DNA of 39,807 nt from Methylobacterium sp. (GCF_019750675.1 NZ_JAIEOF010000357.1:1-39807); one strand, 5' to 3'; counted from the stretch's first letter, positions 2,506-19,127 are shown. The notes: generated from the sequence alone by a model not told the origin. A program made the numbers and translations.

Positions 2506-2541
2506 TTGACACCCCGGGATCGTTGGCATACCAAATACCAA
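2506..2541 (+). promoter_or_regulatory. Operator A and likely promoter of PAS-frc1
   Basis: TTGGCATACCAAATACCAA at 2523-2541 reads TTGGTAT-TTGGT-ATGCCAA on the other strand, an interrupted palindrome. Eighteen of its bases (2524-2541) recur exactly upstream of oxc at 15549-15566. A TTGACA (-35-like) sits at 2506-2511, so the operator would cover the -10 region. The half-sites resemble those of FCD-type GntR regulators. That the GntR at 15805 binds here is inference. Confidence 0.7.
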
Positions 2542-2645: not shown

Positions 2646-3149
2646 GTGTCCGATGCCACGAAGCCCAAGCATCCCGACGCGACGATGCGAATCGCGAGGC
2701 CGGCGGCCCACGGCGTGACCATGGCGCAGGGCATCGACTTCGCCGCACTGGTCGCGGCCGCCGGGGACGCCGTCGTGGTGTCCGATCCCGATGGGGCAAT
2801 CACGGTGTGGAATCCGGCCGCCACCCGCATCTTCGGCTACACGGCGGAAGAAGCCATCGGCCGGTCCCTCGACCTCATCACCCCGGAGCGCCAGCGCAAG
2901 CGCCACTGGGACGGTTACGCCAAGACCATGAAGACCGGTGTGACCAAGTACGGCGCAGACGTCCTGCGGGTGCCGGCCATCCACAAGGACGGTCACGCCC
3001 TCTCCATCGCCTTCACCGTGGCGATGCTGCACGGCCCCGACGACCAAGTCACCGGCATCGCCGCGATCATCCGCGACGAGACCCAGCGCTGGAACGATGA
3101 GCGCGACCTGCGCCGCCGTTTGGCCGACCTCGAATCCCGCGTCGCCTGA
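2646..3149 (+). CDS. Single PAS-domain sensor protein
   Basis: The protein has one PAS domain ([19 protein letters not shown], then [18 protein letters not shown]) closing with a PAC-like segment ([13 protein letters not shown]) and a short C-terminal helix. There is no kinase, cyclase or DNA-binding output domain, so it must act through a partner or bind a small ligand or cofactor. The start is uncertain. The GTG at 2646 has GGAG 9 bases upstream and lies downstream of the operator; ATGs at 2684 and 2721 are also in frame but lack a good ribosome site. It ends 139 bases before frc1 with no strong terminator between, so it is probably the first gene of a PAS-frc1 unit and may tune oxalate use to redox state or a metabolite. 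Confidence 0.75.
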
Positions 3150-3288: not shown

Positions 3289-4539
3289 ATGAGCAAGCCG
3301 CTCGAGGGTATCAAGATCATCGACTTCACCCACGTCCAGGCCGGCCCGGCCTGCACGCAGCTGCTGGCCTGGTTCGGCGCCGACGTGATCAAGGTGGAGC
3401 GCCCCGGGGCCGGTGACGTGACGCGCACGCAGCTGCGCCACGTGGAGGATGCCGACGCGCTCTATTTCACGATGCTCAACTCGAACAAGCGTTCGCTGAC
3501 CCTCGACACCAAGACCCCCGAGGGCAAGGAAGTCCTCGAGAACCTTATCAAGCAGTCCGACGTCATGGTCGAGAACTTCGGCCCCGGCGCTCTCGACCGC
3601 ATGGGCTTCTCCTGGTCGCGCATCCAGGAACTCAACCCGGGCATGATCCTGGCCTCGGTGAAGGGCTTCTCGGACGGCCACCACTACGAGGACCTGAAGG
3701 TCTACGAGAACGTGGCCCAGTGCGCGGGCGGTGCCGCCTCCACCACCGGCTTCTGGGACGGTCCGCCCACCGTCAGCGCCGCCGCCCTCGGCGATTCCAA
3801 CACCGGCATGCACCTGGCCATCGGCATCCTCACGGCGCTGCACCAGAAGAACAAGAGCGGCAAGGGCCAGAAGGTCGCCGTCTCGATGCAGGATTCGGTG
3901 CTCAACCTCTGCCGCGTTAAGCTGCGCGACCAGCAGCGCCTCGATGCGCTGGGCTACCTCGAGGAATACCCGCAGTACCCGCACGGCGAGTTCTCGGACG
4001 TAGTGCCGCGCGGCGGCAACGCGGGCGGCGGCGGCCAGCCGGGCTGGGTGCTGAAGTGCAAGGGCTGGGAGACCGACCCGAACGCCTACATCTACTTCAC
4101 CATCCAGGGCCATGCCTGGGCCCCGATCTGCAAGGCGATCGGCAAGCCGGAATGGGAGAACGACCCGGCCTACAGCACGGCGCGCGCCCGCCAGGACAAG
4201 ATCATGGACATCTTCGGCACGATCGAGGCCTGGCTCGCCGACAAGACCAAGTTCGAGGCCGTCGACATCCTGCGCAAGTTCGACATCCCGTGCTCGCCGG
4301 TGCTGTCGATGAAGGAGATCGCCAACGATCCGTCCCTGCGCGCCAGCGGCACCGTGGTCGAGGTGCCCCATCCGAAGCTCGGCTCGTACCTGACCGTGGG
4401 AAGCCCGATCAAGTTCTCGGACATGACGGTCGAGGTGAAGGCCTCGCCACTCCTCGGCGAGCACACCGACGAGGTCCTGCTCGACCTCGGCTACACCCAG
4501 CAGCAGATCGAGCACCTGCACCAGGCCCGCGCCGTCTGA
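3289..4539 (+). CDS. frc: Formyl-CoA:oxalate CoA-transferase, copy 1
   Basis: This 416-aa class III CoA-transferase (CaiB/BaiF family) moves CoA from formyl-CoA to oxalate, giving oxalyl-CoA and formate in the cytoplasm. It opens with the family N-terminus [20 protein letters not shown] and [12 protein letters not shown]. The catalytic aspartate falls at residue 169 (ALGDSNTG), the same number as in the Oxalobacter formigenes enzyme. The glycine loop GGGGQPG, which closes over the active site in FRC, is intact. Length is close to the usual 425-430. The ORF track starts 64 codons earlier; the ATG at 3289 has AGGGAGA before it. A second paralogue lies at 12064-13338. This copy is grouped with the PAS gene rather than with oxc. 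Confidence 0.95.
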
Positions 4540-4726: not shown

Positions 4727-5947
4727 ATGCGATTGTCTCTCCGCAGCCTGATCCCCGAAGCCGCCCCTTTGAGCCTGCGCGAGCGCCTGCGCGCGGCCGG
4801 CGGCGCCCTCGTGGGCATCCTGGCCACCGGGCTGATCAGCCAGGCCGCCGTCGGCTCGGGCTCGACCTTGCCGATCCTGATCGCCCCGATGGGCGCCTCG
4901 GCGGTGCTGCTCTTCGCGGTGCCGGCGAGCCCGCTGGCGCAGCCCTGGTCCATCGTCGGCGGCAATGCCGTGGCGGCCTTCGTGGGCGTCAGCGCCGCCC
5001 TCCTCGTGCAGAACCCCTACGTCGCCGCAGCCCTGGCGATCAGCGTCGCGATCGCGCTGATGATGGCCCTGCGCTGCCTGCATCCGCCGAGCGGCGCCGT
5101 GGCGCTGACGGCGGTGCTCGGCGGCGCGCCGATCCGCGAGCTCGGCTACGGCTTCGCCCTCTGGCCGGTGGCGGCCAACTCTCTCCTGCTGCTCGCCGTG
5201 GCGCTCCTGTTCAACAACCTCACGGGGCGCGCCTACCCCCACGTGCTCCCGAAGGCGGCCGCCGGCCACGGCACGGAGGACCCGCTGCCCTCGGCACGGG
5301 CCGGCATCATCGCCTCCGACCTCGACGCCGTGCTCAAGGACTACGACCAGGTCCTCGACGTGCGCCGGAGCGACCTCGAGGCGATCATCCTCCAGGCGCA
5401 GATCCACGCCTATCGCCGCCGCTCGGGGCAGGCGACCTGCGGCGAGATCATGTCCCGCGACGTCATCGCCATCGGCCCCGAGGCGCCCCTGCACGAGGCC
5501 CTCGACACCCTGCGCCGGCACCACATCAAGGCCCTGCCGGTGACTGACGAGGGCGCCCGGGTGCTGGGCATCGTCACGCAGACGGATCTCCTCGACAAGA
5601 CGCGCTGGGATCTGTCGGGCCCGCGCCTCGGCCCGCGCCGCCGCCTCCGCCTGACGTTGACCCGGGGCCGCGCACCACATGGCTGCGTCGAGGACATCAT
5701 GACCGCGCCCGTGGTGACGGCGCGGCCGGACACGCCGATCTCAGACCTCGTGCTCTGGATGTCGGATGCCGGCCTGCACCACCTGCCGGTGGTCGGTCCC
5801 GACGACCGCCTCGTCGGCATCGTCTCGCAGACCGATCTCGTGGCGGAACTCCTGGCCGACGCCGCCGAGCGCCACGTCCCCTCCGGGGCGGCATCCGGCA
5901 TTCATCCGGTCGGCGAGCGCAGCGCGCAGATCCAGCCGGTGGCGTGA
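4727..5947 (+). CDS. HPP-family membrane protein with two CBS domains
   Basis: The 406-aa product has an N-terminal membrane half (about residues 20-165, four hydrophobic segments) with the diagnostic HPP signature in LHPPSGAVALTAVLGG near residue 119. A soluble half follows with two CBS modules: CGEIMSRDVIAI...LPVTDEGARVLGIVTQTDL, and VEDIMTAPVVTA...LPVVGPDDRLVGIVSQTDL. HPP proteins are integral membrane proteins, some linked to nitrite transport; CBS pairs bind adenine nucleotides and regulate. The solute carried here is unknown. The ATG at 4727 is preferred (GAGG about 11 bases upstream) over the longer ORF. It follows frc1 in the same direction but beyond a strong hairpin, so it is probably transcribed separately. 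Confidence 0.85.
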   Translation: MRLSLRSLIPEAAPLSLRERLRAAGGALVGILATGLISQAAVGSGSTLPILIAPMGASAVLLFAVPASPLAQPWSIVGGNAVAAFVGVSAALLVQNPYVAAALAISVAIALMMALRCLHPPSGAVALTAVLGGAPIRELGYGFALWPVAANSLLLLAVALLFNNLTGRAYPHVLPKAAAGHGTEDPLPSARAGIIASDLDAVLKDYDQVLDVRRSDLEAIILQAQIHAYRRRSGQATCGEIMSRDVIAIGPEAPLHEALDTLRRHHIKALPVTDEGARVLGIVTQTDLLDKTRWDLSGPRLGPRRRLRLTLTRGRAPHGCVEDIMTAPVVTARPDTPISDLVLWMSDAGLHHLPVVGPDDRLVGIVSQTDLVAELLADAAERHVPSGAASGIHPVGERSAQIQPVA

Positions 5948-6915: not shown

Positions 6916-8232
6916 TCAGGCCGTGACCACCCGGGGGGCCGGCTTCGCCTCGTCGGAGACGGCCAGCGCCTGGGCCACCACCCGCTTGCGCCAGGGCTTC
7001 AGCACCGCGATGGCGAGCAGCGAGGCGAGGACGTTGGCGCCGGCGGCCACCAGGAACACGCCGTCCCAGCTGTTGGTCGCCTGCTGAAGGTAGTTCGCCA
7101 CCGGCACTAGGAGGGCCGCCGTGCCCTTGGCGGTGTAGAGCAGGCCCGCATTGGTGGCGGCGAACTTGGTGCCGAAGGTGTCCGTGCAGGTCGAGGGGAA
7201 GAGGGAGTAGATCTCGCCCCAGGCGAAGAACACGAAGCCCGAGAGCAGCACGAACCACAGCGGGTCGTGGCCCCAGAGGTAGAGCATGTAGATGCCGAAG
7301 CCTTCCATCGCGAAGGCGATGAACATGGTGTTCTCGCGGCCGATCTTGTCCGAGACCCAGCCGAAGAAGGGCCGCGTCAGGCCGTTGAGCACCCGGTCGA
7401 TCGTGGCCGCGAAGGTGATCGCCACCATGGTGATGCCCATGATCGTGACGGGAACCTTGTCGACGCCGATGTCGGAGGCGATGGGCTTGAGGTTGGCGGT
7501 GATCATCAGGCCGCCGGCGCCGACGATGACGAACATGAAGTACATCAGCCAGAAGATCGGCTGGCGGGCGACCTCACCGGGGGTGTAGTTGCGCCGGGTC
7601 TGGATGATGTTGGCGTTGGCGACGACCTCCGGAACCTGGCCCTTCTTCGGCGAGGTGAAGAAGAAGGCAAGAGCGCAGACCACGAGGCCCTGGCCGATGC
7701 CGAAGTTGAAGAACGCGGCCTGGAAACCGTGGTCGGCGATCATCCACTGGATCGGCGCGACGGTCAGCGCCGAGCCGGCACCGAAGCCGGCCGCGATGAT
7801 GCCGGCGGCCAGACCCCGCTTGTCCGGGAACCACTTGAGGGCCGAGCCCACGCAGGTGCCGTAGACCGCGCCCGCGCCGATGCCGGCGATGACCTGGCCG
7901 AGATAGAACATGTTCAGCGAGGTGGCGTAGGAGTTGATCACCCAGCCGATGCCGCAGAGCAGGCCGCCGAACAGCACCACCACGCGCGGGCCGTACTTGT
8001 CCACGAACCAGCCTTCGACCGGAACCAGCCAGGTCTCGAACAGCACGAACAAGGTGAAGGCCCACTGGATCGCGGCGCGGTCGAAACCGAACTTCTTCTG
8101 GATGTCGGGGACGAAGAACGTCCAGCCGTATTGCAGGTTGGCGATCATGACCATGCAGATGACGCCGATGACGAGCTGTCCCCATCGATAGCCGTCGGAC
8201 ACAGGTTTGATCGTGGTTTCCGCCATGGACAT
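6916..8232 (-). CDS. oxlT: Oxalate/formate antiporter (MFS, OxlT type)
   Basis: This 438-aa major facilitator exchanges external oxalate for internal formate across the inner membrane, which brings in substrate and helps energise the cell. About 12 hydrophobic segments are visible. Family marks include VDKYGPRVVVLFGG in the loop 2-3 region and the two charged residues expected to face the substrate in OxlT: the arginine in the DRVLNGLTRPFFGW helix and the lysine in LLYTAKGTAALLVP, matching OxlT Arg272 and Lys355 by motif. The start ATG at 8232 has GGAGGAAAGC directly before it; an ATG 6 bases later is also possible. The upstream region carries operator C and two more palindromes. It faces away from the CBS-protein gene. 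Confidence 0.93.
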   Translation of the reverse strand: MSMAETTIKPVSDGYRWGQLVIGVICMVMIANLQYGWTFFVPDIQKKFGFDRAAIQWAFTLFVLFETWLVPVEGWFVDKYGPRVVVLFGGLLCGIGWVINSYATSLNMFYLGQVIAGIGAGAVYGTCVGSALKWFPDKRGLAAGIIAAGFGAGSALTVAPIQWMIADHGFQAAFFNFGIGQGLVVCALAFFFTSPKKGQVPEVVANANIIQTRRNYTPGEVARQPIFWLMYFMFVIVGAGGLMITANLKPIASDIGVDKVPVTIMGITMVAITFAATIDRVLNGLTRPFFGWVSDKIGRENTMFIAFAMEGFGIYMLYLWGHDPLWFVLLSGFVFFAWGEIYSLFPSTCTDTFGTKFAATNAGLLYTAKGTAALLVPVANYLQQATNSWDGVFLVAAGANVLASLLAIAVLKPWRKRVVAQALAVSDEAKPAPRVVTA

Positions 8233-8360: not shown

Positions 8361-8424
8361 GACATCGTGGATCGATGTCTTGGTATGTGGAATACCAGCC
8401 TCACTCGCGCCGTGACGATCGTCA
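8361..8424 (-). promoter_or_regulatory. oxlT upstream palindromes with operator C
   Basis: Three palindromes are stacked. GACATCG-N5-CGATGTC lies at 8361-8379. Operator C, TTGGTATGTGGAATACCAG, lies at 8380-8398, with half-sites TTGGTAT and ATACCA. A perfect 12-mer TGACGATCGTCA lies at 8413-8424 and contains a minus-strand TTGACG (-35-like). Operator C shares its half-sites and the TGG core with operators A and B. Confidence 0.6.
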
Positions 8425-8813
8425 AGAGTATTAATCCCGGAAATCGATCCCGCATCGCAGCAAGGCGCTGTCCTGATGAAGACCAGAGCGCGTTGCAGAA
8501 GCTCCGGCATGGATCGCCGAAGTAGAAGAAAGCGCCAGTCCAACATCCTCGCGCCGGCACTGAAGGATAGAGGCTGAGCCCGCTGTGCGTACGCTAACGC
8601 CTTGCGAACGCTGACGGACGATCGCGCCACCGCGCTCAGCGACCTCGCGAAGCCGAAAGGTGAGACAGGTGACGCTGCATCGCAGCATTGAAACCAAATG
8701 CGGAACTGCAAAATTTATCATTGCAAGGGAGGGGGAGGACGGGCCTCAGCGCTTCCCCCCGGACAAAATCGGTCTCCTGTCTCCGATTGCGGCAGGATAA
8801 TTCAGACCCTCCG

Positions 8814-8847
8814 TTGACATCTGAAATTCTGTATACCAGCATTCGCG
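8814..8847 (+). promoter_or_regulatory. Promoter and operator-like site D of the CBS-protein gene
   Basis: TTGACA (8814-8819) is followed, after a 20-base spacer, by CATTCGCG. The spacer ends in GTATACCAG, matching the right half of the oxalate operator. The oxc promoter has the same arrangement: TTGACA, 20 bases, CATTCTCG. The implied -10 (CAGCAT at 17-base spacing) is weak, as expected if an activator is needed. Confidence 0.5.
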
Positions 8848-8881
8848 CAACAAGAATTCGCGGGTTCGGAGGAGCCGCGCC

Positions 8882-9292
8882 ATGAATGCTCGCCACGAGG
8901 CTTGCAGTACCGCCCCCCGTGCGCGCTACATCCGCATGGATCGTTCGGTACGTGAGGCCATCAAGATCCTGTCGGACCCGGACGTCGACGCCCTCGTCGT
9001 CGTGGAAGGACCGAGCGACGACCGGGGGGCCTTCATCGGAATCCTGACGGAGCGTGAGATCTTCAAGGCGATGGCCGAGCGCGGTCTCGACGTGCTCGAC
9101 CACCTCGTCTGGATGCTGACGACACAGGATTTCGTTTCAGTGGACGTGCGGACCACCCCCGCCGACCGTCTCGAGGCCTTCTGCACCCACAAGACCAATC
9201 ACATCGCGATCATGGACGGCCTCTGCCTGCACTCGGTCCAGAGCATCTGGGATTGCGTGGCCGCCTCGGCGGATCGTGCCGCCGCGGCCTGA
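8882..9292 (+). CDS. CBS-domain regulatory protein
   Basis: The 136-aa protein is essentially a CBS pair: VREAIKILSDPDVDALVVVE...GAFIGILTEREIFKAMAERG, then MLTTQDFVSVDVRTTPADRLEAFCTHKTNHIAIMDG. CBS pairs bind AMP, ATP, NAD or similar ligands and change the activity of partners. No catalytic domain is attached. The second module is degenerate after IAIMDG. The ATG at 8882 has GGAGG about 9 bases upstream. It is the first of four small-to-medium plus-strand genes lodged between oxlT and frc2-oxc, and its promoter resembles that of oxc. A role in oxalate or formate metabolism is inferred from position and promoter only. Confidence 0.8.
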   Translation: MNARHEACSTAPRARYIRMDRSVREAIKILSDPDVDALVVVEGPSDDRGAFIGILTEREIFKAMAERGLDVLDHLVWMLTTQDFVSVDVRTTPADRLEAFCTHKTNHIAIMDGLCLHSVQSIWDCVAASADRAAAA

Positions 9293-9543
9293 CCGCCTGC
9301 ACGGCGTGATTGTACGGGGCCGGTCATCGTCATGCGCGCAGTCCTGCAAAGCCGCGCGCCCAAATCCTGCAGTGCAATCCTCGATTTGTGCTCTGCAAAT
9401 ACTTTTGGCCGGGCAGCGATCTTGACGCTCTTGGCTTTTGAATACAAATTTTGCTTGGCGCGGTTCGGCGCCATTCCACACGATGGTCCCTGCGGCCGCT
9501 GCCGCTCCGCCGGCGGGTCCGGGACAGGCAAGGAACGGGACTG

Positions 9544-9822
9544 ATGCGTTATCTGGCGATCCTCGACTGCCCCGTGATCTTCAGCGGCGAGAACAGCTAC
9601 GGGATGACGAGCATCGACATGTGCCCGTCGACGGGGATCACGGGCGGCCTCATCAGCCGCCACGTCAAGGTGGTGGACGGCCGCCTGATCGCGGTCTGCA
9701 TCTGGACGAGCGAGTTCTGCGCCAGGGTGTTCTTCGATGCGGCCTGGTACCAGAAGGCCGCCGAACTCTGGGACGACCAGTACCAGCTTCGCCTCGAGGC
9801 GATCGACGAACAGGCCGCCTGA
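9544..9822 (+). CDS. Conserved-looking 92-aa hypothetical protein
   Basis: The product starts MRYLAILDCPVIFSGENSYG and continues with GGLISRHVKVVDGRLIAVCIWTS and an aromatic helix (FFDAAWYQKAAELWDDQY). The alternation of strands and an amphipathic helix is like a small ferredoxin-like (dimeric alpha+beta) fold, but I cannot place it in a named family. The ORF track begins 31 codons earlier; the ATG at 9544 has a purine-rich AAGGAACGGG upstream. The 250-base gap before it holds a possible promoter (TTGACG at 9422 with TACAAA downstream). It is followed 64 bases later by the P-loop gene on the same strand. Confidence 0.7.
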   Translation: MRYLAILDCPVIFSGENSYGMTSIDMCPSTGITGGLISRHVKVVDGRLIAVCIWTSEFCARVFFDAAWYQKAAELWDDQYQLRLEAIDEQAA

Positions 9823-9886
9823 TCGTCGGGCTCGCGCGTCCGCGTGCCCCGCGCGGCGCGGCGCGGTGACGTGAGGAGCGATGGCG

Positions 9887-11725
9887 ATGCCTGCCCGCGC
9901 GCGCGCTCCAGAGCCCATCGCGGCGCAGCCTGATGCACCGTCGCATCACGCCTACGGTCCCTGGAATCCCGGCATCGAGTCGAGCCTGCCGCGCGCCGTC
10001 CTGCCGCTCGCCACGGTGTTCCGGCCCGAGCATGTCGAGACGACCCTCGCCGACGCCTTCGAGATGAGCGACGTCAGCGGCTTGCCGCTGACGTCGCTGG
10101 TCCGGTTCCGGGCCCGGCGGCTCGTGGTCCACGAGGTTCTGATCCGCGTGATGGCGGACTTCTCCGTGCCGATGGGCGAGACCTACGGCGATCTCGGGGT
10201 GAACTTCCGCGCCATCGTGTCGGCGCTCCTGCGCGGCGGGATCGCGTCGCATGCCGACACGATCGACGCGCATCTGGCCGGGATCCGCGCCCGGGCGGAC
10301 GCCCTGTTGGAGGCCGAGATCACCGCGATGCTGGGCTCGGGCCGCGCGCCGGCCCCGCCGCCGCGCCGCGCCGGCTGGGCCGGCCTGTTCCGTACCCGTA
10401 AGCCGGCCAGCCCCCGGCCCCCGGCCGACCCCGAGGCGCGGGCCGAGGCGCATCTCGCGGAATGGCAGGACCGCGCCGCCGCGTCGGGCGATCCCCTGGC
10501 GATGGCGGCCTGCGCGGCCCTGCGCGGCGTCGTCGCGTCCGTCGTCGGGCGGCGCGGCTTCCTCATCCGCGATCCGGCGCTCCTGCGGACGCTCGCCGTG
10601 ACCCTGGTCTCGAACGGCCATGGCAGCCTTTCCCTCGGCGAGCGCATCGAGCCGTGGCTGGAGACGGTGGTGGCGCGCGAGGGGTTCGTCCGCCTCGACC
10701 CCCAGGCCGCGCCGGTCATCATGAACGTGAAGGGCTCCTCCGCCTCCGGCAAGAGCACGATCCGGCCCCACCAGCGCGCGCTGACCGAGGCTCTCGGCCT
10801 GCGCTGGTCGGACTTCGCCCTGATCACGCCGGATGTCTGGCGCAAGTTCCTGCTCGATTACGACGGCCTCGGCGCGGCGTGGCGCTATGCCGGGCCGCTC
10901 ACCGGACACGAGGTCGAGATCGTCGACCGCAAGCTCGACGGCTACATGGCCCGCAAGGCCGATGCGGGACGCATCTCCCACCTCCTCATCGACCGCTTCC
11001 GCTTCGACAGCTTCGCGGTCAATCCCGGCACCGAGACGGGCAGCCAGCTCCTCACCCGCTTCGGCCAGCAGGTCTACATGCAGTTCATGGTGACGCCGCC
11101 GGACGCCACCGTGGAGCGGGCCTGGAAGCGGGGCCAGCAATTCGGCCGCTACAAGGCGGTGGAGGACCTCCTGGCCCACAACGTCGAGGCCTATACGGGC
11201 ATGCCGCGCCTGTTCTTCACCTGGGCGCTGCGCGCCGACAAGGCGGTGCATTTCGAGTTCCTGGACAACAGCGTGGCCGAGGGCGAACGGCCGCGCACCA
11301 TCGCATTCGGCACCAACGGCTGCATGAACATCCTCGACGCCGGATACCTTCTCGACATCGACCGCTACCGGGCGATCAACATCCAGGCGCGCGAGCCCGG
11401 GGCGGTCTATGCCGGGGTGCCGTCCCGCGCGGCGGTGGACATGCGCTTCCTGCGCGACTGTATCCGGCGGATGACGACGATCCGGTTTGCCGATCACCAG
11501 ACCGGGCGGGTCCTCGCCCGCCTTGAGCGCGGGCGCCTGGCGAGCCTGGCCCCGGAGGCGGTGGATGGCGGCGCGATCCGGCGCCTCCTCACCGACCTGC
11601 GCGTGCCGCCGGCGGCCGGCACGATCCAGGACGACGGCGAGGTCCTGTCGGTCGCCGAAGCCCGGACGCTGGGAGCCTGGGGGCCGTCCGCCAGCCCGGC
11701 AGTCATGCTTTCACGGCAAAGCTGA
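9887..11725 (+). CDS. Large P-loop (zeta-toxin/kinase-like) protein of unknown role
   Basis: This protein of about 612 aa has a P-loop in its middle: Walker A GSSASGKST (about residues 283-291), preceded by the strand PVIMNVK. LITPDVWRKFLL follows, and later SHLLIDRFRFDSF and a YMQFMVTPPDATVERAWKRG segment. The order resembles nucleotide kinases and zeta-toxin-type ATPases. The N-terminal 270 residues look helical, with a proline-rich linker (about 155-185), and match nothing I know. Two ATGs are possible: 9881 lies only 2 bases after GAGGAG, while 9887 has proper spacing and is preferred. No antitoxin-like partner is visible, so a toxin role is not supported. It sits in the cluster inside the oxalate locus. 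Confidence 0.75.
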   Translation: MPARARAPEPIAAQPDAPSHHAYGPWNPGIESSLPRAVLPLATVFRPEHVETTLADAFEMSDVSGLPLTSLVRFRARRLVVHEVLIRVMADFSVPMGETYGDLGVNFRAIVSALLRGGIASHADTIDAHLAGIRARADALLEAEITAMLGSGRAPAPPPRRAGWAGLFRTRKPASPRPPADPEARAEAHLAEWQDRAAASGDPLAMAACAALRGVVASVVGRRGFLIRDPALLRTLAVTLVSNGHGSLSLGERIEPWLETVVAREGFVRLDPQAAPVIMNVKGSSASGKSTIRPHQRALTEALGLRWSDFALITPDVWRKFLLDYDGLGAAWRYAGPLTGHEVEIVDRKLDGYMARKADAGRISHLLIDRFRFDSFAVNPGTETGSQLLTRFGQQVYMQFMVTPPDATVERAWKRGQQFGRYKAVEDLLAHNVEAYTGMPRLFFTWALRADKAVHFEFLDNSVAEGERPRTIAFGTNGCMNILDAGYLLDIDRYRAINIQAREPGAVYAGVPSRAAVDMRFLRDCIRRMTTIRFADHQTGRVLARLERGRLASLAPEAVDGGAIRRLLTDLRVPPAAGTIQDDGEVLSVAEARTLGAWGPSASPAVMLSRQS

Positions 11726-11745
11726 CATCTGGGATGTGGTATATC
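11722..11745 (+). promoter_or_regulatory. Operator-like site E before the 53-aa gene
   Basis: CTGACATCTGGGATGTGGTATATC aligns without gaps to site D (shared TGACATCTG, AT and GTATA at the same spacing), and GATGTGG/TATA agrees with operator C. It overlaps the stop of the P-loop gene. The match to the strong operators is weak. Confidence 0.3.
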
Positions 11746-11801
11746 TATTTGCGGCGCACCATGGCACACCTGCGGTGCAACATGCACTGAGGAGGCCCAC
11801 C

Positions 11802-11963
11802 GTGCTCGCATCCATCATCGTCTCGACGCTCTGCCTGATCGCCCTTCAGGTCGTGCTCGTCGTCAAGGTCGCTGACTGGATGTCCCGCGACACCGGGAAG
11901 GTCGAGGGCCGCAACGATGTCGTGCTCGGCAGCGTCAACGGCCGCTTCGCCGGAATCGCCTGA
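11802..11963 (+). CDS. 53-aa single-pass membrane peptide
   Basis: This GTG-started ORF has a strong GAGGAGG ribosome site at 8 bases. It opens with one hydrophobic helix (IIVSTLCLIALQVVLVVKV) followed by a short soluble tail rich in charged and small residues (DWMSRDTGKVEGRND). The ORF track lists it only inside a longer 158-aa frame whose 5' part overlaps the P-loop gene. It lies 76 bases after the P-loop gene and ends before the terminator of the convergent oxc-frc2 operon. Peptides of this type often attach to or regulate a membrane protein. Its partner could be OxlT, but that is a guess. Confidence 0.6.
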   Translation: MLASIIVSTLCLIALQVVLVVKVADWMSRDTGKVEGRNDVVLGSVNGRFAGIA

Positions 11964-12063: not shown

Positions 12064-13338
12064 CTATTCGGCTGCGATCTTCTGAACGGCGCCGATGGCG
12101 CCGGACTCTGAAATCTTGAGGCACTCGGCGTCGGAGTAGCCGAGCACCGCGCGCAGGATCTCGTCCGTGTGCTCGCCCAGCAGCGGCGAGCGCGTGATCT
12201 CGGTCTCGCTGCCCGAGAGCCGGATGGGATTGCCCACCGTGAGGTACTTGCCCCGCGTCGGGTGATCGACCTCCACGACCGTGCCGGACCGGCGCAGGGA
12301 TTCGTCCTCCGCGATCTCCTTCATGGAGAGGATCGGTCCGCAGGGCACGTGCAGCGCGTTGAGGATCTCCATCGCCTCGAACTTGGTCTTCGACATCGTC
12401 CAGGATTCGATGCGGGTGAAGATCTCGTTCAGGTGCGGCAGGCGAGCCTTCGGCGTGGCGTAGTCGGGATGCGTCGCCCAGGCGGGTTCGCCGATGACGT
12501 CGCAGATCTGCGGCCAGACCGCCCCTTGCGTGATGAAGTAGATGTAGGCGTTGGGGTCGGTCTCCCAGCCCTTGCACTTCAGGATGCGCCCGGGCTGGCC
12601 GCCCCCGGAATCGTTTCCGGCACGGGGCACCGAATCCCCGAAGGGAATTCCTTCCCCGAACTGGCTGTATTCCGGCAGAGGCCCGCGCTCCAGGCGCTGC
12701 TGGTCGCGCAGCTTCACCCGGCAGAGGTTGAGTACCCCGTCCTGCATCGCGCAGTCGACGCGCTGGCCGAGGCCCGTCTGCGTCCGGTGATAGAGGGCGG
12801 TCACGATGCCGAGCGCGAGGTGGAGCCCGGTGCCGGAATCGCCGATCTGCGCGCCCGTCACCATCGGGATGTCGGTCCGGAACCCCGTGGTGGAGGCCGC
12901 TCCGCCGACGCACTGCGCCACGTTCTCGTAGACCTTGCAATTCTCGTAGGCGCCGGGGCCGAACCCCTTCACGGATGCGAGAATCATGCGCGGATTGGCG
13001 GCGTGGATCGCCTCCCAGGTCAGACCCATGCGGGCGAGCGCGCCGGGGGCGAAGTTCTCCACGAGTACGTCGCAGGTGTCGATCAGGCGCCAGAGCACCT
13101 CGATGCCCTTGGGGTTCTTGGTGTCGAGGGTGATCGAGCGCTTGTTGTGGTTCAGCATCGTGAAATAGAGGCTGTCCACGTCGGGAATGTCTTGTAGCTG
13201 CTGGCGCGTGGCGTCGCCCACGCCGGGGCGCTCGACCTTGATCACGTCGGCGCCGAACCAGGCCAGCAACTGCGTGCAGGTCGGGCCGGACTGGACGTGG
13301 GTGAAGTCGAGGATCTTGACGCCTTCGAGGGCTTTCAT
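12064..13338 (-). CDS. frc: Formyl-CoA:oxalate CoA-transferase, copy 2
   Basis: The 424-aa class III CoA-transferase is a clear paralogue of copy 1, with long identical runs such as KVYENVAQC and LRDQQRL. The catalytic aspartate is D167 (QIGDSGTG) and the glycine loop is SGGGQPG, one glycine shorter than in copy 1. Reaction: formyl-CoA plus oxalate to formate plus oxalyl-CoA, feeding oxc, which lies directly upstream on the same strand. Compared with copy 1 it has an altered middle ([16 protein letters not shown]) and about eight extra C-terminal residues. The ORF track merges it with a long shadow frame; the ATG at 13338 starts the conserved domain. Two hairpins in the gap after oxc may lower its expression relative to oxc. 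Confidence 0.95.
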
Positions 13339-13457: not shown

Positions 13458-15233
13458 TCAGGCCGGCTTCTTGCGCACCGTGCTGGTCGGGTTGAGGCTG
13501 CCGATATTGCCGCTCTCGGTACCGGCATTCGGGTCGATCACGGCGTTGATCAGGGTGGGCTTGCCCGAGTCCATCGCGGCGTTGACCGCCTGCGAAAGCT
13601 CGTCCGGGGTCGTCACGTTGACGCCGACACCGCCGAAAGCCTCCATCATCTTGTCGTAGCGCGAGTCCTTCACGAACACCGTGGTGCCCGGGTCGCGCCC
13701 GGTCGGGTCGATGTCGGTGCCGCGGTAGATGCCGTTGTTGTTGAAGACCACGATGCAGACCGGCAGGTCGTACCGGCAGATCGTCTCGACCTCCATGCCG
13801 GAGAAGCCGAAGGCCGAGTCGCCCTCCACCGCCAGCACCGGCTTGCCGGTCTCGACGGCGGCCGCGACCGCGAAGCCCATGCCGATGCCCATGATGCCCC
13901 AGGTGCCGACATCGAGGCGCTTGCGCGGCTGGTACATGTCGATGATGCCGCGGGCGAGATCGAGGGTGTTGGCGCCCTCGTTGACGAGGATCGCGTCGGG
14001 CCGCTCCTTGATGATGGTGCGCAGCGCCCCGAGCGCGCCATGGAAGTCCATCGGCGTCGAGTTCTTCTTCAGCTTCGAGGCCATCTTGGAGAGGTTCTCC
14101 TCCTTCTTGGCCTTGATCGCGTCGGTCCAGGCGGCCGGCGGCGCCTGCCAGCCCTGGCCCATGCCGTCGAGGAGCGCGGTGACGCAGGAGCCGATGTCGC
14201 CGACCACCGGGGCCACGATCTCGACGTTGGAATCCATCTCCTTCGGCTCGATGTCGATCTGGATGAACTTCTTGGAGCCCGGCGCGCCCCAGGTCTTGCC
14301 CTTGCCGTGCGAGAGCAGCCAGTTCAGGCGGGCACCCACCAGCAGGACGACGTCGGCTTCTTTCAGAACCAGGGAGCGGGCCGCGCCGGCCGACTGGGCG
14401 TGGGTGTCGGGCAGGAGGCCCTTGGCCATGCTCATGGGCACGTAGGGGATGCCGCTGCGTTCGACGAGGTTGCGGATCTCCTCGTCGGCCTGGGCGTAGG
14501 CCGCGCCCTTGCCGAGCACGATGAGGGGACGCTTGGCTTGTCTCAGCACGTCGAGGGCGCGGGCGATGGCGCTGGGGGCGGGAAGCTGCGCGGGGGCGGC
14601 GTCGATCACCTTGACGAGGGACTTCTCGCCGGCCTCGGCGTCCATCACCTGGGAGAACAGCTTGGCGGGCAGATCGAGGTAGACGCCGCCCGGACGGCCC
14701 GAGACAGCGGCCCGGATCGCGCGCGCCACCGCGATGCCGATGTCGCAGGCGTGCAGCACGCGGAAGGCGGCCTTGCACAGAGGCTTGGCGATGGCGAGCT
14801 GGTCCATCTCCTCGTAGTCGCCCTGCTGCAGGTCGACGATCTCGCGCTCGGAGGAGCCCGAGATCAGGATCATCGGGAAGCAGTTGGTGGTGGCGTTGGC
14901 CAGCGCCGTCAGGCCGTTGAGGAAGCCGGGCGCCGAGACGGTCAGGCAGATGCCGGGCTTCTTGGTGAGGAAGCCCGCGATGGCGGCGGCGTTGCCGGCG
15001 TGCTGCTCGTGGCGGAAGGAGATGACGCGCATGCCGGCAGCCTGCGCGAGGCGGCCGAGATCGGTGATCGGGATGCCGGGCACGCCGTAGATGTTGGTGA
15101 TGCCGTTGAGCTTCAGCGCGTCGATGACGAGGTGGAAGCCGTCGGTCTGCTCGCGCTCGTGGGCCTCGCCGTGGCCACCCGGAAGGGACTCGACGGCGGC
15201 GTGCGACTGTTCGGAGACAGCGGTGCGATCCAT
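13458..15233 (-). CDS. oxc: Oxalyl-CoA decarboxylase
   Basis: This 591-aa thiamine-diphosphate enzyme converts oxalyl-CoA to formyl-CoA and CO2; formyl-CoA then returns to the CoA-transferases. The N-terminal Pyr domain holds the catalytic glutamate in [12 protein letters not shown] (about E76). The central domain carries nucleotide-type contacts. The C-terminal PP domain has the ThDP/Mg motif from GDSAFGFSG to [21 protein letters not shown] and the C-terminal [11 protein letters not shown] are typical of oxalyl-CoA decarboxylases rather than of acetolactate synthases. Relative to the 568-aa Oxalobacter enzyme it has about 25 extra N-terminal residues. GGAGGAAATC precedes the ATG at 15233. 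It is the first gene of oxc-frc2 and has a leader of about 300 bases behind operator B. Confidence 0.95.
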
Positions 15234-15804
15234 GGTGATTTCCTCCGGTTGGGGCGCTTCTTGTTTGTTCGTGCGCCGTTCTTGAAGCGGGTCTCGGGTG
15301 GGGACTTGCTGTGCCGGACGGACGGTCCGGCCGTGTTTGTTCGGTCGATTCTCGCGTGCGCGCTCGCTGGCGAAGCGAGGGGGCGCGGAGCGCGCGGCCC
15401 GGGTCCCGGCAGGGACCGAAGTGCCTCGAAAGTCCGGCCGCCGAAGAACCCTCGGCGGTCCTGCGCTTGACCGAGGTCGACGCCTCGGAACCTAATGTTC
15501 GAAGTTTTGCTGCCGATTCCGGCTTCGCGGTTGCCAGTTCGAGAATGGTGGCATACCAAATACCAAGTGTCAAACCGGATCGGGCCCCATCCGCAGGCAC
15601 CGGCGGCCCGCGCGCGGGGGTGTAAAGACCCGTGTCATCACGTCTTCGCGCGCGGCCGAAGCTATGTTGTTGTTGCAGGGGCCCTATTCAGATGTTGTCC
15701 CGGGATGGAGGGCTTCGTTTCCTTGTGTTCCGGAAGCGGGTTCGGCATGCTCCAGACCAAATGTGCGCGGCGTCGGCGTTTGTACGAAGGTTCCAGGTGT
15801 AAAG
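15234..15804. other. oxc leader and divergent gntR control region
   Basis: There is no gene here. If transcription starts just after promoter B, oxc has a 5' leader of about 300 bases. Within it are several short perfect hairpins: GCCGGAC/GTCCGGC (15313-15331), GGTCCC/GGGACC (15402-15417), CTCGCT/AGCGAG and CCGAGG/CCTCGG. The remaining 15600-15804 would carry the gntR promoter, for which I see no clear boxes. Confidence 0.5.
15540..15573 (-). promoter_or_regulatory. Operator B and promoter of oxc-frc2
   Basis: On the minus strand: TTGACA (15573-15568), one base, then TTGGTATTTGGTATGCCAC (15566-15548), then CATTCTCG. The operator is identical over 18 bases to operator A upstream of PAS-frc1. 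It lies in the spacer between -35 and a weak -10 (CACCAT at 17 bases), the same arrangement as site D. Confidence 0.75.
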
Positions 15805-16497
15805 ATGGTTGAGTCGACGACCTTTCAAATCAAGCCCCTGGCCGCGACGTCGAGCCTGCGGGCACTGGCCTATGATGCGCTGAAAGAAGCCATCACCAAC
15901 ATGAACATCTACAGCCAGCGCGAGGAGGTGCGGCTCGACGAGCGAAAGCTCTCGCAGGATCTCGGCGTCAGCCGCACGCCGGTGCGCGAGGCTCTGACCG
16001 TGCTGGAGCAGGAGGGCTTCGTCCGCTTCGAGGCGCGGCGCGGCGTCTTCGTGATCAAGAAGTCCAAGAAGGAGATCGTGGCGATGATCCAGGCTTGGTC
16101 GGCCCTGGAGAGCATGGCCGCGCGCCTCGCCTGCCTGCATGCTACGGACGAGCAGCTCGCCTGCCTGCGCGAGCACTTCCCCGAATTCTACGAGGGCCGC
16201 CCGACCGACCACATGGACGAGTATTCCGACGCCAACATCCGCTTCCACCAGAAGATCATCGCGCTCGGCGGCTGCGAGGTGATCCAGGACATCACCAGCA
16301 ACCTGCTGATGCATGTCCGCGGCATCCGCAACACCGCCCTGCGCCAGGGCGATCGCGCCGCGAACTCGATCAAGGAACACGTCGAGATCATCCAAGCCCT
16401 GGAAGCGCGCGACGCGGAGCGGGCCGAGCGCCTCGTGCGCGAGCACGGTCTCGGCCTCGCCCGCCACGTCGAGAAGTACGGCGACTACCTGGATTGA
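15805..16497 (+). CDS. GntR-family (FCD) transcriptional regulator of the oxalate locus
   Basis: The 230-aa product has an N-terminal winged HTH (VRLDERKLSQDLGVSRTPVREALTVLEQEGF, about residues 42-72) and a C-terminal all-helical FCD domain. The FCD metal/ligand residues are visible: DANIRFHQ, then MHVRGIR and KEHVEII. FCD regulators sense small organic acids and bind TGGTATACCA-like operators, in keeping with the repeated sites in this locus. It is divergent from oxc. The ORF track starts 47 codons upstream; the ATG at 15805 (AGGTG about 8 bases before it) gives normal family length. Oxalate, oxalyl-CoA or formyl-CoA as effector, and whether it activates or represses, are inference. Confidence 0.9.
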   Translation: MVESTTFQIKPLAATSSLRALAYDALKEAITNMNIYSQREEVRLDERKLSQDLGVSRTPVREALTVLEQEGFVRFEARRGVFVIKKSKKEIVAMIQAWSALESMAARLACLHATDEQLACLREHFPEFYEGRPTDHMDEYSDANIRFHQKIIALGGCEVIQDITSNLLMHVRGIRNTALRQGDRAANSIKEHVEIIQALEARDAERAERLVREHGLGLARHVEKYGDYLD

Positions 16498-16540: not shown

Positions 16541-17581
16541 TCAGTAGCTCGGCACCAGGCGCTCCTCCGGCAGCGGCGCCTCCATGTGGAAGTGCAGGCC
16601 GGTGGGCGCGTAGTCGATCGTGACGGTGGCGTTGCATTGCTGCGCCAGCACCCGCTGCAGCAGGGTCGAGCCGAAGCCCTTGCGCTGGGGCGCCGTCACG
16701 GGCGGTCCGCCGGATTCCCGCCAGTCGAGGCTGAGGCGCCGGCCCGAATCACCGGCCGTGACGTCCCAGGCCACGGTGATGCGCCCGCCCGGCTGCGAGA
16801 GCGCGCCGTGCTTGGCGGCGTTGGTGGTCAGTTCGTGGAACGCCATGCCGGTGGGCACCGCGAGGTCGGCCGCAAGCTCGATCGGAGGGCCGTCGAGCTG
16901 GACCCGGGCGCCGTCGGCGTCGTTGTAGGGCCTGAGTTCGTTCTCCAGCAGTTCGTGCAAGGGCGCGGTCTGCCAGTAATCCTCGGTGAGCAGGGTGTGG
17001 GTCTTGCCCAGCGAGACGATGCGGTTCGAGAACGACTGGTAGAACGTCTCGACGTCCCGGGTGGAGCGGGCGGTGGCCCCCAGAAGCCCCTGCACCGTGG
17101 CGAGGGTGTTCTTCACACGGTGGTGCAGCTCGCGAATCAGCAGCGCCTGGCGCTCGTGGGTCTTCTGCCGCTCCTCGAGATGGGCCAGCACTTCCCATTG
17201 CCGGCGCCGTGCGCGCAGGGCCGAGCGCACGGCGTTGGCGAGCACGGCGGGGTGGAACGGCCGCTCCAGCAGGGTGACGTTGCCGAGCAGTCCGGTCAGG
17301 CGCTCGTCCGGCGAGGCGCCCCGGTGGTTGAGCAGGATAAAGGGAAAATCCGACCAGGGCGGCTGCCGTTCGGACCATTCGGCGAGGGCCCGCCGGTCGG
17401 AGCGCAGTAGGGCCTCCTCGGTGATCACCGCGCAGGCCGCCGCGTCGAGGTCGGCCACGAGATCGGCCAGGCTCTCGCGGATCCGCGATGCGATGCCGAC
17501 CTCGGCCAGGATCGCGGCGGCGACCCGCGCGTCCCGTCCCCCCGGCGCGAGGATCAGCGCGACGGGATCAGGCTGCGCCAT
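16541..17581 (-). CDS. HWE-family histidine kinase with degenerate receiver domain
   Basis: The 346-aa soluble protein ends in an HWE kinase: phosphoacceptor histidine in IRELHHRVKNTLATVQGLL (about H153/H154), the N-box with the family histidine (FHELTTNAAKHGALS), and the W-x-E motif (LDWRESGGPP). The first 125 residues look like a response-regulator fold that has lost its function: the phospho-acceptor aspartate position reads VITEE, and the usual KPF motif is RPF. It may thus take its signal from a partner. Its start overlaps the end of the kaiC-like gene by 14 bases, so the pair is translationally linked. HWE kinases in this group of bacteria often feed light or general-stress pathways; the target is not in this window. 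Confidence 0.88.
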   Translation of the reverse strand: MAQPDPVALILAPGGRDARVAAAILAEVGIASRIRESLADLVADLDAAACAVITEEALLRSDRRALAEWSERQPPWSDFPFILLNHRGASPDERLTGLLGNVTLLERPFHPAVLANAVRSALRARRRQWEVLAHLEERQKTHERQALLIRELHHRVKNTLATVQGLLGATARSTRDVETFYQSFSNRIVSLGKTHTLLTEDYWQTAPLHELLENELRPYNDADGARVQLDGPPIELAADLAVPTGMAFHELTTNAAKHGALSQPGGRITVAWDVTAGDSGRRLSLDWRESGGPPVTAPQRKGFGSTLLQRVLAQQCNATVTIDYAPTGLHFHMEAPLPEERLVPSY

Positions 17582-19127
17582 GGGAGCCGGGTTCGCTGGC
17601 GGTGATCCGCGCGGCCTCTGATGGCCGGTCGTCGAGGAGATCGGCGCGATTGCCTTCGAAGGTCGGCACGCCGGTGAGCACGCCGCGGAAGTTCTCGAGG
17701 ACCGCCCCGACCCGCAGGCCCTGGGCGTCGATGCGGAACTCGCGGATCGTGTCCTCGTGGATGCCAGTGCGCTTCTTGAGCACCGAGAGGGCGCGTCGCA
17801 CCCGCCCGGCCGCCTCGAAGAAGCGCAGCATGATCACCGTGTCGCTGACGTAGGTCAGGTCGACCGGGGCCTCCATCCGGCCCACCATCCCGTGCTGGGC
17901 CAGCACCAGGATCGTCACCACGCCCTGCTGATTCAGGTAGGTCGTCATCTCGTGCATCTGCAGCACGAGGTGCGGCTGCCCGCTCATGGCGCTCATGTAG
18001 CCGGTGAGGCTGTCGATCACCACGACGCGGGCCCCGTCGGTCTCGACGGCGTCGCGGATGCGCCCCGCGAAATCCCCTGCCGAGACGTCGGCCGGGTCCA
18101 TCTGCTCGACGCGCAGGCGGCCCGCTTCGATATGCGCGTCGATCGGGAGGCCGATTCCGGCGGCCCGCCGCCGCAGGATGCCGAGGGTCTCGTCGAAGCT
18201 GATGACCAGCCCGGGCTCGCCCCGCTCCAGGGCGGCCACGAGGTAGCCCAGCGCCAGGGTGGACTTGCCGGCGCCCGAGGGGCCGATGATGAGGCTGGTG
18301 GTGCCCCGGTCGAGGCCGCCCCCCAGGGCCTTGTCGAGTTCGGGAACGCCGCAGGCGATGGTCTCGGGCACGAACGCGGTGTGGTGGTCGGCCGCCACCA
18401 GACGCGGGAAGATGCGGACCCCGCCGCGCCGGAGCACGAAATCGTGGTAGCCGCTCGCGTAGGGCGTGCCGCGCATCTTGATGACGTGGAGCCGCCGGCG
18501 TCCCGCCCCGTAGGTCGGGGTGATCTGCTCCAGGCGCAGCACCGCGTGGCTGATGGAGTGCAGGTTGAGGTCGTCGTCCTCCGAGCTGAGGTCGTCGAGC
18601 ATCAGCACGGTGGCGTTGTTGAGGAGGAAGTAGCTCTTGAGCGCCAGCACCTGCCGTCGGTAGCGCAGGGAGCCCTGCGAGAGCAGGCGGATCTCCGACA
18701 GGCTGTCGAACACCACCCGCACCGGGCTCACGCGCTCGATCTCGGCCAGCGCCATCCGCACCGTCTCGCCGAGTTCGAGGTCGGAGGAGTGGATCAGGCT
18801 CTGCTGCTGCTCGGAATCGAGGCTGAGCTCCGGGGGCACCAGTTCGTAGATCTCGAGACCGTCGAGGGACCAGCCGTGGCGCTCCGCCACGGAGTGCAGC
18901 TCGCGCCGGCTCTCCGACAGGGTGATGTAGAGGCCGCGCTCGCCGCGCCGCAGGCCGTCGAGGAGAAACTGCAGTCCGAGCGTGGTCTTGCCGCTGCCGG
19001 GGCGTCCCTCGATCAGGTGGGCGCGCTGGGCCGCGTAGCCGCCGTTGAGAATCTCATCGAGGCCGACCACCCCGGTCGGGATCGGCGCTGCGTCGCCTGC
19101 GACGGGAGTTTGCATGGGCGTCCGCAT
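17568..19127 (-). CDS. KaiC-like double RecA ATPase
   Basis: The 519-aa protein has two KaiC/RadA-type ATPase domains in tandem, with Walker A motifs GRPGSGKTT (about residue 41) and GPSGAGKST (about 283), and Walker B-like strands VRVVFDSLSEI and RVVVIDSLTGY. In the second domain the catalytic glutamate region is SFDETLG; in the first it is TLSESRR, so one of the usual paired acidic residues is replaced. The region matching the KaiC autophosphorylation loop reads VDLTYVSDTVIML, which keeps a threonine but not the adjacent serine. There is no kaiA or kaiB nearby. Start: ATG 19127 or, with a better-spaced AGGA, ATG 19115. It is translationally coupled to the HWE kinase, which suggests an ATPase-kinase signalling pair rather than a full clock. 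Confidence 0.88.
   Translation of the reverse strand: MRTPMQTPVAGDAAPIPTGVVGLDEILNGGYAAQRAHLIEGRPGSGKTTLGLQFLLDGLRRGERGLYITLSESRRELHSVAERHGWSLDGLEIYELVPPELSLDSEQQQSLIHSSDLELGETVRMALAEIERVSPVRVVFDSLSEIRLLSQGSLRYRRQVLALKSYFLLNNATVLMLDDLSSEDDDLNLHSISHAVLRLEQITPTYGAGRRRLHVIKMRGTPYASGYHDFVLRRGGVRIFPRLVAADHHTAFVPETIACGVPELDKALGGGLDRGTTSLIIGPSGAGKSTLALGYLVAALERGEPGLVISFDETLGILRRRAAGIGLPIDAHIEAGRLRVEQMDPADVSAGDFAGRIRDAVETDGARVVVIDSLTGYMSAMSGQPHLVLQMHEMTTYLNQQGVVTILVLAQHGMVGRMEAPVDLTYVSDTVIMLRFFEAAGRVRRALSVLKKRTGIHEDTIREFRIDAQGLRVGAVLENFRGVLTGVPTFEGNRADLLDDRPSEAARITASEPGSHGAA

Follow-up and report, generated by a model that had tools for sequence, protein, structure and literature searches.

Why does an oxalate-degradation locus of Methylobacterium carry, between its transporter gene and its catabolic genes, four genes that belong to no described oxalate pathway? 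Oxalate is a plant acid usable by Methylobacterium, and its breakdown is usually pictured as the joint work of a transporter, formyl-coenzyme A (CoA) transferase (Frc), oxalyl-CoA decarboxylase (Oxc) and formate oxidation. The locus in question lies on a single 39.8-kb contig of Methylobacterium sp. (NZ_JAIEOF010000357.1, the whole of which is called the window), closely related to M. goesingense and Methylobacterium sp. J-078. All four components of known oxalate operons, frc, oxc, oxlT and gntR, are present there (GntR by Pfam), the oxlT, two frc and oxc genes being verified by curated models. As outlined in Table 1, genes for a CBS-domain protein, a 92-residue protein (p92), a P-loop protein and a 53-residue peptide (p53) lie between oxlT and frc-oxc, and the order, plus strand and coordinates given for these four open reading frames in the initial annotation were borne out, their conservation marking them as real genes. 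In our reading, which we hold at a probability of about 0.72, the four genes are accessory members of an oxalate regulon and the P-loop protein is probably a metabolite kinase.

The distribution of the P-loop gene was followed through 111 Methylobacterium genomes. It is present in 85 of them (in two cases in pieces scoring below the cut-off), and all 85, i.e. the window genome and 84 others, are oxc-positive, while the 20 genomes of the genus without oxc are without the P-loop gene as well (Fisher p = 4e-17, for related genomes and with no phylogeny correction). Outside the genus, most P-loop homologues are likewise found in oxc-bearing genomes; the opposite pattern, homologues mostly in genomes lacking oxalate genes, which the initial annotation had named as speaking against the link to oxalate, was not observed. 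Since GDH has paralogues and was not found as a marker in 30 genomes, a tree built on a GDH fragment of 41 genomes allows joint losses to be counted only roughly. Herein, the oxc-less genomes form one deep group and three tips (G478, G460 and G467), and the sister species of G478 and G467 carry both oxc and the P-loop gene, which argues that the two were gained or lost together several times. Loss of the P-loop gene with retention of oxc occurred at least twice. In the single-contig genome G348, which has no oxc, a frameshifted P-loop homologue was observed (L081, ~8807-10452, minus strand), as if decaying after the loss of the oxalate genes.

The P-loop gene is also physically linked to the oxalate genes. 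It is located at most 7.6 kb from oxc in 62 of the 85 genomes, with a median distance of 1.9 kb; the remaining copies comprise 18 on a contig other than that of oxc and five at a large distance from it, and within these two groups frc adjoins the gene in L065, L076, L077, L092, L094 and L095. Within the genus the orders oxlT-CBS-p92-P-loop-p53-frc-oxc, ABC-aminotransferase-P-loop-oxlT-oxc and frc/p88-P-loop were found. Outside of it, the P-loop gene ends a row oxc-frc-formyltransferase-(FTHFS-Usp)-TctCBA in the alphaproteobacterial genomes G381 and G335 and in a metagenome-assembled genome (MAG) of Chromatiales; formate-tetrahydrofolate ligase (FTHFS) stands within this row in G381 and the Chromatiales MAG, and in G381 every gene from gntR onward points in the same direction. 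The P-loop gene follows TctA after an 18-nt gap in L079 and with a 4-nt overlap in L078. Furthermore, two Skermanella plasmids bear oxc, and in one of them oxlT lies ~8 kb from the P-loop gene. A formyl transferase (PF00551/PF02911), which no NCBIfam model fits well, was seen beside frc in several loci (L079:5159-7767, L078:13912-14826, L011:1625-4234 and L065:2801-3733) and is adjoined by formate-tetrahydrofolate ligase in L079 and L011; it may transfer the formyl group from formyl-CoA onto folate.

A shared operator provides the third line of evidence. Scanning the window for TGGTAT-N5-ATACCA with up to three mismatches gave seven matches compared to 1.9 expected, five of which precede PAS-frc, oxlT, CBS, p53 and oxc/gntR; the operator-like sites noticed earlier before the first (CBS) and the last (p53) of the four genes are thus real, with two and three mismatches, respectively. 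In related Methylobacterium loci the 17-bp palindrome, TGGYAT-N5-ATRCCA, has 70 perfect sites over 666 kb, where Markov shuffles gave 0, and these sites precede oxlT, oxc, gntR, frcB, PAS-frcA and CBS. At the place of the CBS operator most relatives have a version with one mismatch, including L058, L062 and L012, where CBS or p92 was missed by the gene caller. In other gene orders the operator stands directly 5' of the P-loop gene itself (L076), 5' of p53 (L061) or 5' of p88-P-loop units (L065, L074, L077, L092, L094 and L095), and altogether 19 of 30 P-loop units have an operator with no more than two mismatches, to which the sites at the CBS position in L058, L062 and L012 would add two or three. 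A genome-wide pattern search of genome G000 returned five perfect matches, three of them in the window. Outside the window, a perfect site is found 18 nt 5' of a two-gene formate dehydrogenase with NuoF-like and FDH-alpha subunits (L113:4858), and a site with one mismatch precedes a second oxlT (L115:2741). Sites at the oxalate, formate dehydrogenase and second oxlT genes fit the regulon expected for the route from oxalate via formate to CO2, and the adjacent GntR-FCD protein would be the one that binds the palindrome. Another perfect site, at L114:1801, lies ~490 bp upstream of an apparent pyrroloquinoline quinone-dependent methanol/alcohol dehydrogenase, so named from sequence only, and could be a chance match or a regulon member. 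Strict co-occurrence with oxc, physical linkage that recurs in several unrelated gene orders and the common operator make for a strong genomic association of the P-loop gene with the oxalate genes, as had been suspected from the single locus.

What kind of protein does this gene encode? Its central P-loop was correctly recognized in the initial annotation, the length of about 612 residues was not: the protein has 614. A probably helical N-terminal region (residues ~28-270) is followed by a kinase-like core (~272-482) and a C-terminal extension, the core presenting, in this order, Walker A (KGxSAxGKST), [ST]PDxWRK, DRFRFDSF, TPPxxTVxRAWxRG..RYK and FLDNxV. K291, D318, R321, R413, R417 and R423 are invariant from Methylobacterium to Azoarcus, and the three motifs that were checked, Walker A (KGxSAxGKS), [ST]PDxWR and the lid arginines, are kept in 38 of 38 homologues. 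Because the positions of catalytic type are invariant and the motifs so consistently kept, the protein very likely has P-loop phosphotransferase or kinase activity; the possible kinase of the initial annotation does bear the hallmarks of one. As judged by sequence, it reaches the membership score of no named family. The zeta-toxin/UNAG kinase superfamily (PF06414, Zeta_toxin), in which a P-loop, an Asp/Arg motif and an Arg-rich lid follow in the same order, was its only match, at 13.8 bits and hence below the cut-off of 22.3. This profile was matched, mostly weakly, by 22 of 24 homologues, and among the homologues listed only that of Azoarcus exceeded the cut-off (25.3 bits). In contrast to a zeta toxin, the P-loop protein has a length of 614 residues with a long N-terminal region, is tied to a catabolic regulon and has no antitoxin partner, no epsilon-type family match being found among its neighbours. 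The AvrRxo1/XopAJ NAD 3'-kinase family (NF041405) shares the broad fold class and differs in its N-terminal region, whereas the P-loop protein has a housekeeping context and no secretion link was seen; the Azoarcus core aligned with model residues 57-165 at 23.4 bits, the best value against a cut-off of 300, and six of 15 kinase cores matched this model at some level, that of the window not at all. Uridine kinase (TIGR00235) and the adenylate kinase-like PDB entry 3cm0 gave faint matches to Walker A or the lid, which were not significant (E 0.02-0.7), and the PDB, searched by sequence with both the protein and profiles, returned nothing usable. Short N-terminal profile matches to Slr0869 and interferon gamma (E 0.002-0.04) were taken as chance. 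In L097 (G486) the P-loop gene is split into two overlapping frames beside oxlT-oxc, where a recent break or a sequencing error is likely.

The three small proteins do not form a single unit with the P-loop protein, as had been proposed for the four genes. For the CBS protein Pfam detects one CBS domain (residues 16-65, 33 bits against a threshold of 24) rather than the claimed pair, a degenerate second domain being only suggested by the sequence. Its homologues, with 35-98% identity, adjoin p92 in 46 other genomes; p92 itself is present in 49 others, in three of them without CBS. The CBS gene thus comes with p92 in 47 of 47 genomes, all of them oxc-bearing, yet the P-loop gene is found without this CBS gene in 44 genomes: CBS and p92 are inseparable, and the P-loop gene is separable from the pair. 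Neither p92 nor p53 matches any family in Pfam or NCBIfam. A scan for short open reading frames that start with a hydrophobic stretch and end on a GR[FY] tail revealed relatives of p53 in ~14 further loci, in which the N-terminal transmembrane (TM) stretch LIALQVLLVVKxAD is constant, the tail is GRFAGIA- or GRYAxxA-like and the linker varies; since TM stretch and tail are kept while the linker varies, p53 should be a translated peptide. It carries its own operator, whose position is conserved (with only one mismatch in L061), and persists where the P-loop gene is absent. Where oxc is kept without the P-loop gene (L083, L084, L086, L087 and L088), p92 and p53 are separated by differing, unrelated genes or the region is rearranged; in L087 both the P-loop gene and p53 seem to have been cleanly deleted. 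Alongside the second oxlT type a further small membrane protein of 66-67 residues, with an LQSVPFAG motif, was noticed (L115:4190-4390, L065:7455-7658 and L092:8987-9187).

With respect to function, we propose that the GntR-FCD regulator would bind the palindrome when oxalate or a product of it is present and would switch on oxlT, frc, oxc, formate dehydrogenase, CBS-p92-P-loop and p53 together. At high oxalate flux the P-loop kinase would then most likely phosphorylate a small metabolite, probably one resembling a nucleotide or cofactor, and the phosphorylated compound would be a side step or a signal adjusting oxalate, formate and CoA metabolism. The CBS protein and p92 could be co-expressed helpers or sensors, and p53 a separate co-regulated membrane component, perhaps a transporter partner. 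Assigning the P-loop protein a part in control, and not in a side reaction, is a guess on our side.

Several observations weigh against this proposal. In the phylum sample, 25 oxc-positive genomes outside the genus, the majority there, have no P-loop homologue, and six genomes of the genus keep oxc, CBS and p92 without it; from both sets it follows that the P-loop gene is an option and not a requirement for oxalate breakdown, and its product is not an obligate pathway enzyme. Relatives of the P-loop gene occur without a known oxc in G836 and on an Azoarcus plasmid, the chromosome of which was not searched. In the six loci with the ABC-aminotransferase order no operator was found at the P-loop unit. 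Finally, kinase activity and substrate are deduced from motifs, and AlphaFold2 predictions for the full protein and for the kinase core (five sequences) reached a mean pLDDT (predicted local distance difference test) of only 34 and 39, respectively.

Among the alternatives, it is doubtful that the kinase makes a phosphorylated ligand for a regulator and thereby serves as a flux sensor instead of a metabolic side step. Such an arrangement has a precedent in M. extorquens, where the phosphoribulokinase product serves QscR, and it would agree with a P-loop gene that lies inside the regulon it would control and is dispensable for the catabolic genes, and with a CBS partner that could read adenylates; however, the kinase gene is missing from many oxc loci elsewhere. 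A role of the P-loop and small membrane proteins in oxalate transport, for example by assisting OxlT or TctABC, is unlikely. The position of the P-loop gene behind TctA, or ahead of oxlT in the ABC-aminotransferase order, and the conserved TM peptide p53 would suit this role, but the P-loop protein has neither a TM segment nor a transporter-ATPase motif, and in many loci its gene is closer to frc than to the transporter. Quite unlikely, too, is that the genes are bystanders without an oxalate role, held next to oxc by inherited synteny. Shared ancestry within the genus, and the fact that most of the 20 oxc-less genomes are one group, would be compatible with such hitchhiking, yet the linkage survives several rearranged orders, other Alphaproteobacteria, the Chromatiales MAG and different transporters (OxlT or TctABC), the operator stands immediately before CBS, p53, p88 or the P-loop gene itself, and oxc-less G348 has only its frameshifted copy. 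A zeta-type toxin, or a toxin-antitoxin or defence element sitting by chance in the oxalate locus, is very unlikely and was rejected, for although Zeta_toxin is the best family profile, the Azoarcus gene is annotated as a zeta toxin and the small p92 gene lies just upstream, the P-loop gene keeps its place next to oxalate genes in most of the genus, has the shared operator and depends strictly on oxc, p92 has no antitoxin match and is missing from about half of the P-loop genomes, PADLOC and PHROGs gave no convincing match for any of the four proteins, and no similar domain was found by the PDB searches.

The regulon reading may be taken further towards the substrate. AvrRxo1, a kinase of the zeta fold, phosphorylates NAD (PMC5087710, PMC5491322); this fold can therefore act on cofactors, which serves here as a lead only. 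By analogy with the distantly similar AvrRxo1 core, the P-loop protein might be a cofactor kinase, phosphorylating for instance NAD or a CoA-type metabolite at the adenosine ribose, whose product would be an endogenous oxalate/formate switch; to this specific version we assign a small chance.

The features of the locus are collected in Table 1. Besides these, an HPP-CBS membrane protein adjoins frcA (4727-5947) and recurs in many oxalate loci of the genus, and downstream of gntR (16541-19127) an HWE histidine kinase adjoins a KaiC-like ATPase, the latter being identified by its sequence alone; this pair is conserved in the closest relatives only.

Table 1. Genes, motifs and operator sites of the oxalate locus in the window.
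Feature	Position	Strand	Evidence or remark
Operator TGGCATACCAAATACCA 5' of PAS-frcA	2524..2540	.	
PAS-domain-like protein, opens frcA unit, regulon member (context)	2646..3149	+	name from sequence
frcA, formyl-CoA transferase (context)	3289..4539	+	TIGR03253, 724.5 bits
oxlT, oxalate/formate antiporter (context)	6916..8232	-	TIGR04259, 632 bits
Operator TGGTATGTGGAATACCA 5' of oxlT	8381..8397	.	perfect
Operator 5' of CBS	8822..8838	.	2 mismatches
CBS-domain protein, 136 aa	8882..9292	+	PF00571, 33 bits (cut-off 24)
p92, 92 aa	9544..9822	+	no family; P-loop gene starts 58 nt downstream
P-loop protein, 614 aa	9881..11725	+	
Walker A KGSSASGKST, residues 284-293 of P-loop protein	10730..10759	+	invariant positions
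TPDVWR, with D318 as putative catalytic Asp and R321 as putative substrate Arg	10826..10843	+	invariant; role inferred
Arg-rich lid-like segment (R413, R417, R423, K425)	11117..11155	+	invariant; role inferred
Operator-like site 55 nt 5' of p53 gene	11730..11746	.	3 mismatches
p53, 53-aa single-TM peptide	11802..11963	+	GTG start; C-terminal GRFAGIA
frcB, formyl-CoA transferase (context)	12064..13338	-	TIGR03253, 701 bits
oxc, oxalyl-CoA decarboxylase (context)	13458..15233	-	TIGR03254, 1018 bits
Operator TGGCATACCAAATACCA between oxc and gntR	15549..15565	.	
GntR-FCD regulator, presumed owner of operator	15805..16497	+	PF07729 and PF00392

None of the four proteins matches a named oxalate component, in agreement with the initial annotation; they are outside NCBIfam coverage and are unmentioned in the oxalate literature searched (PMC12927642, PMC10192776), the coverage of which did not extend to the AM1 study (Schneider 2012). 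A candidate kinase, a CBS protein, p92 and a membrane peptide under an operator common to formate dehydrogenase and two oxalate antiporters therefore point to an unstudied control or side branch of oxalate metabolism in leaf-dwelling Methylobacterium. The regulon motif supplies a direct list of candidate genes. Methylobacterium is genetically tractable. If the cofactor-kinase version were true, it would add a so far undescribed regulatory arm to oxalate catabolism.

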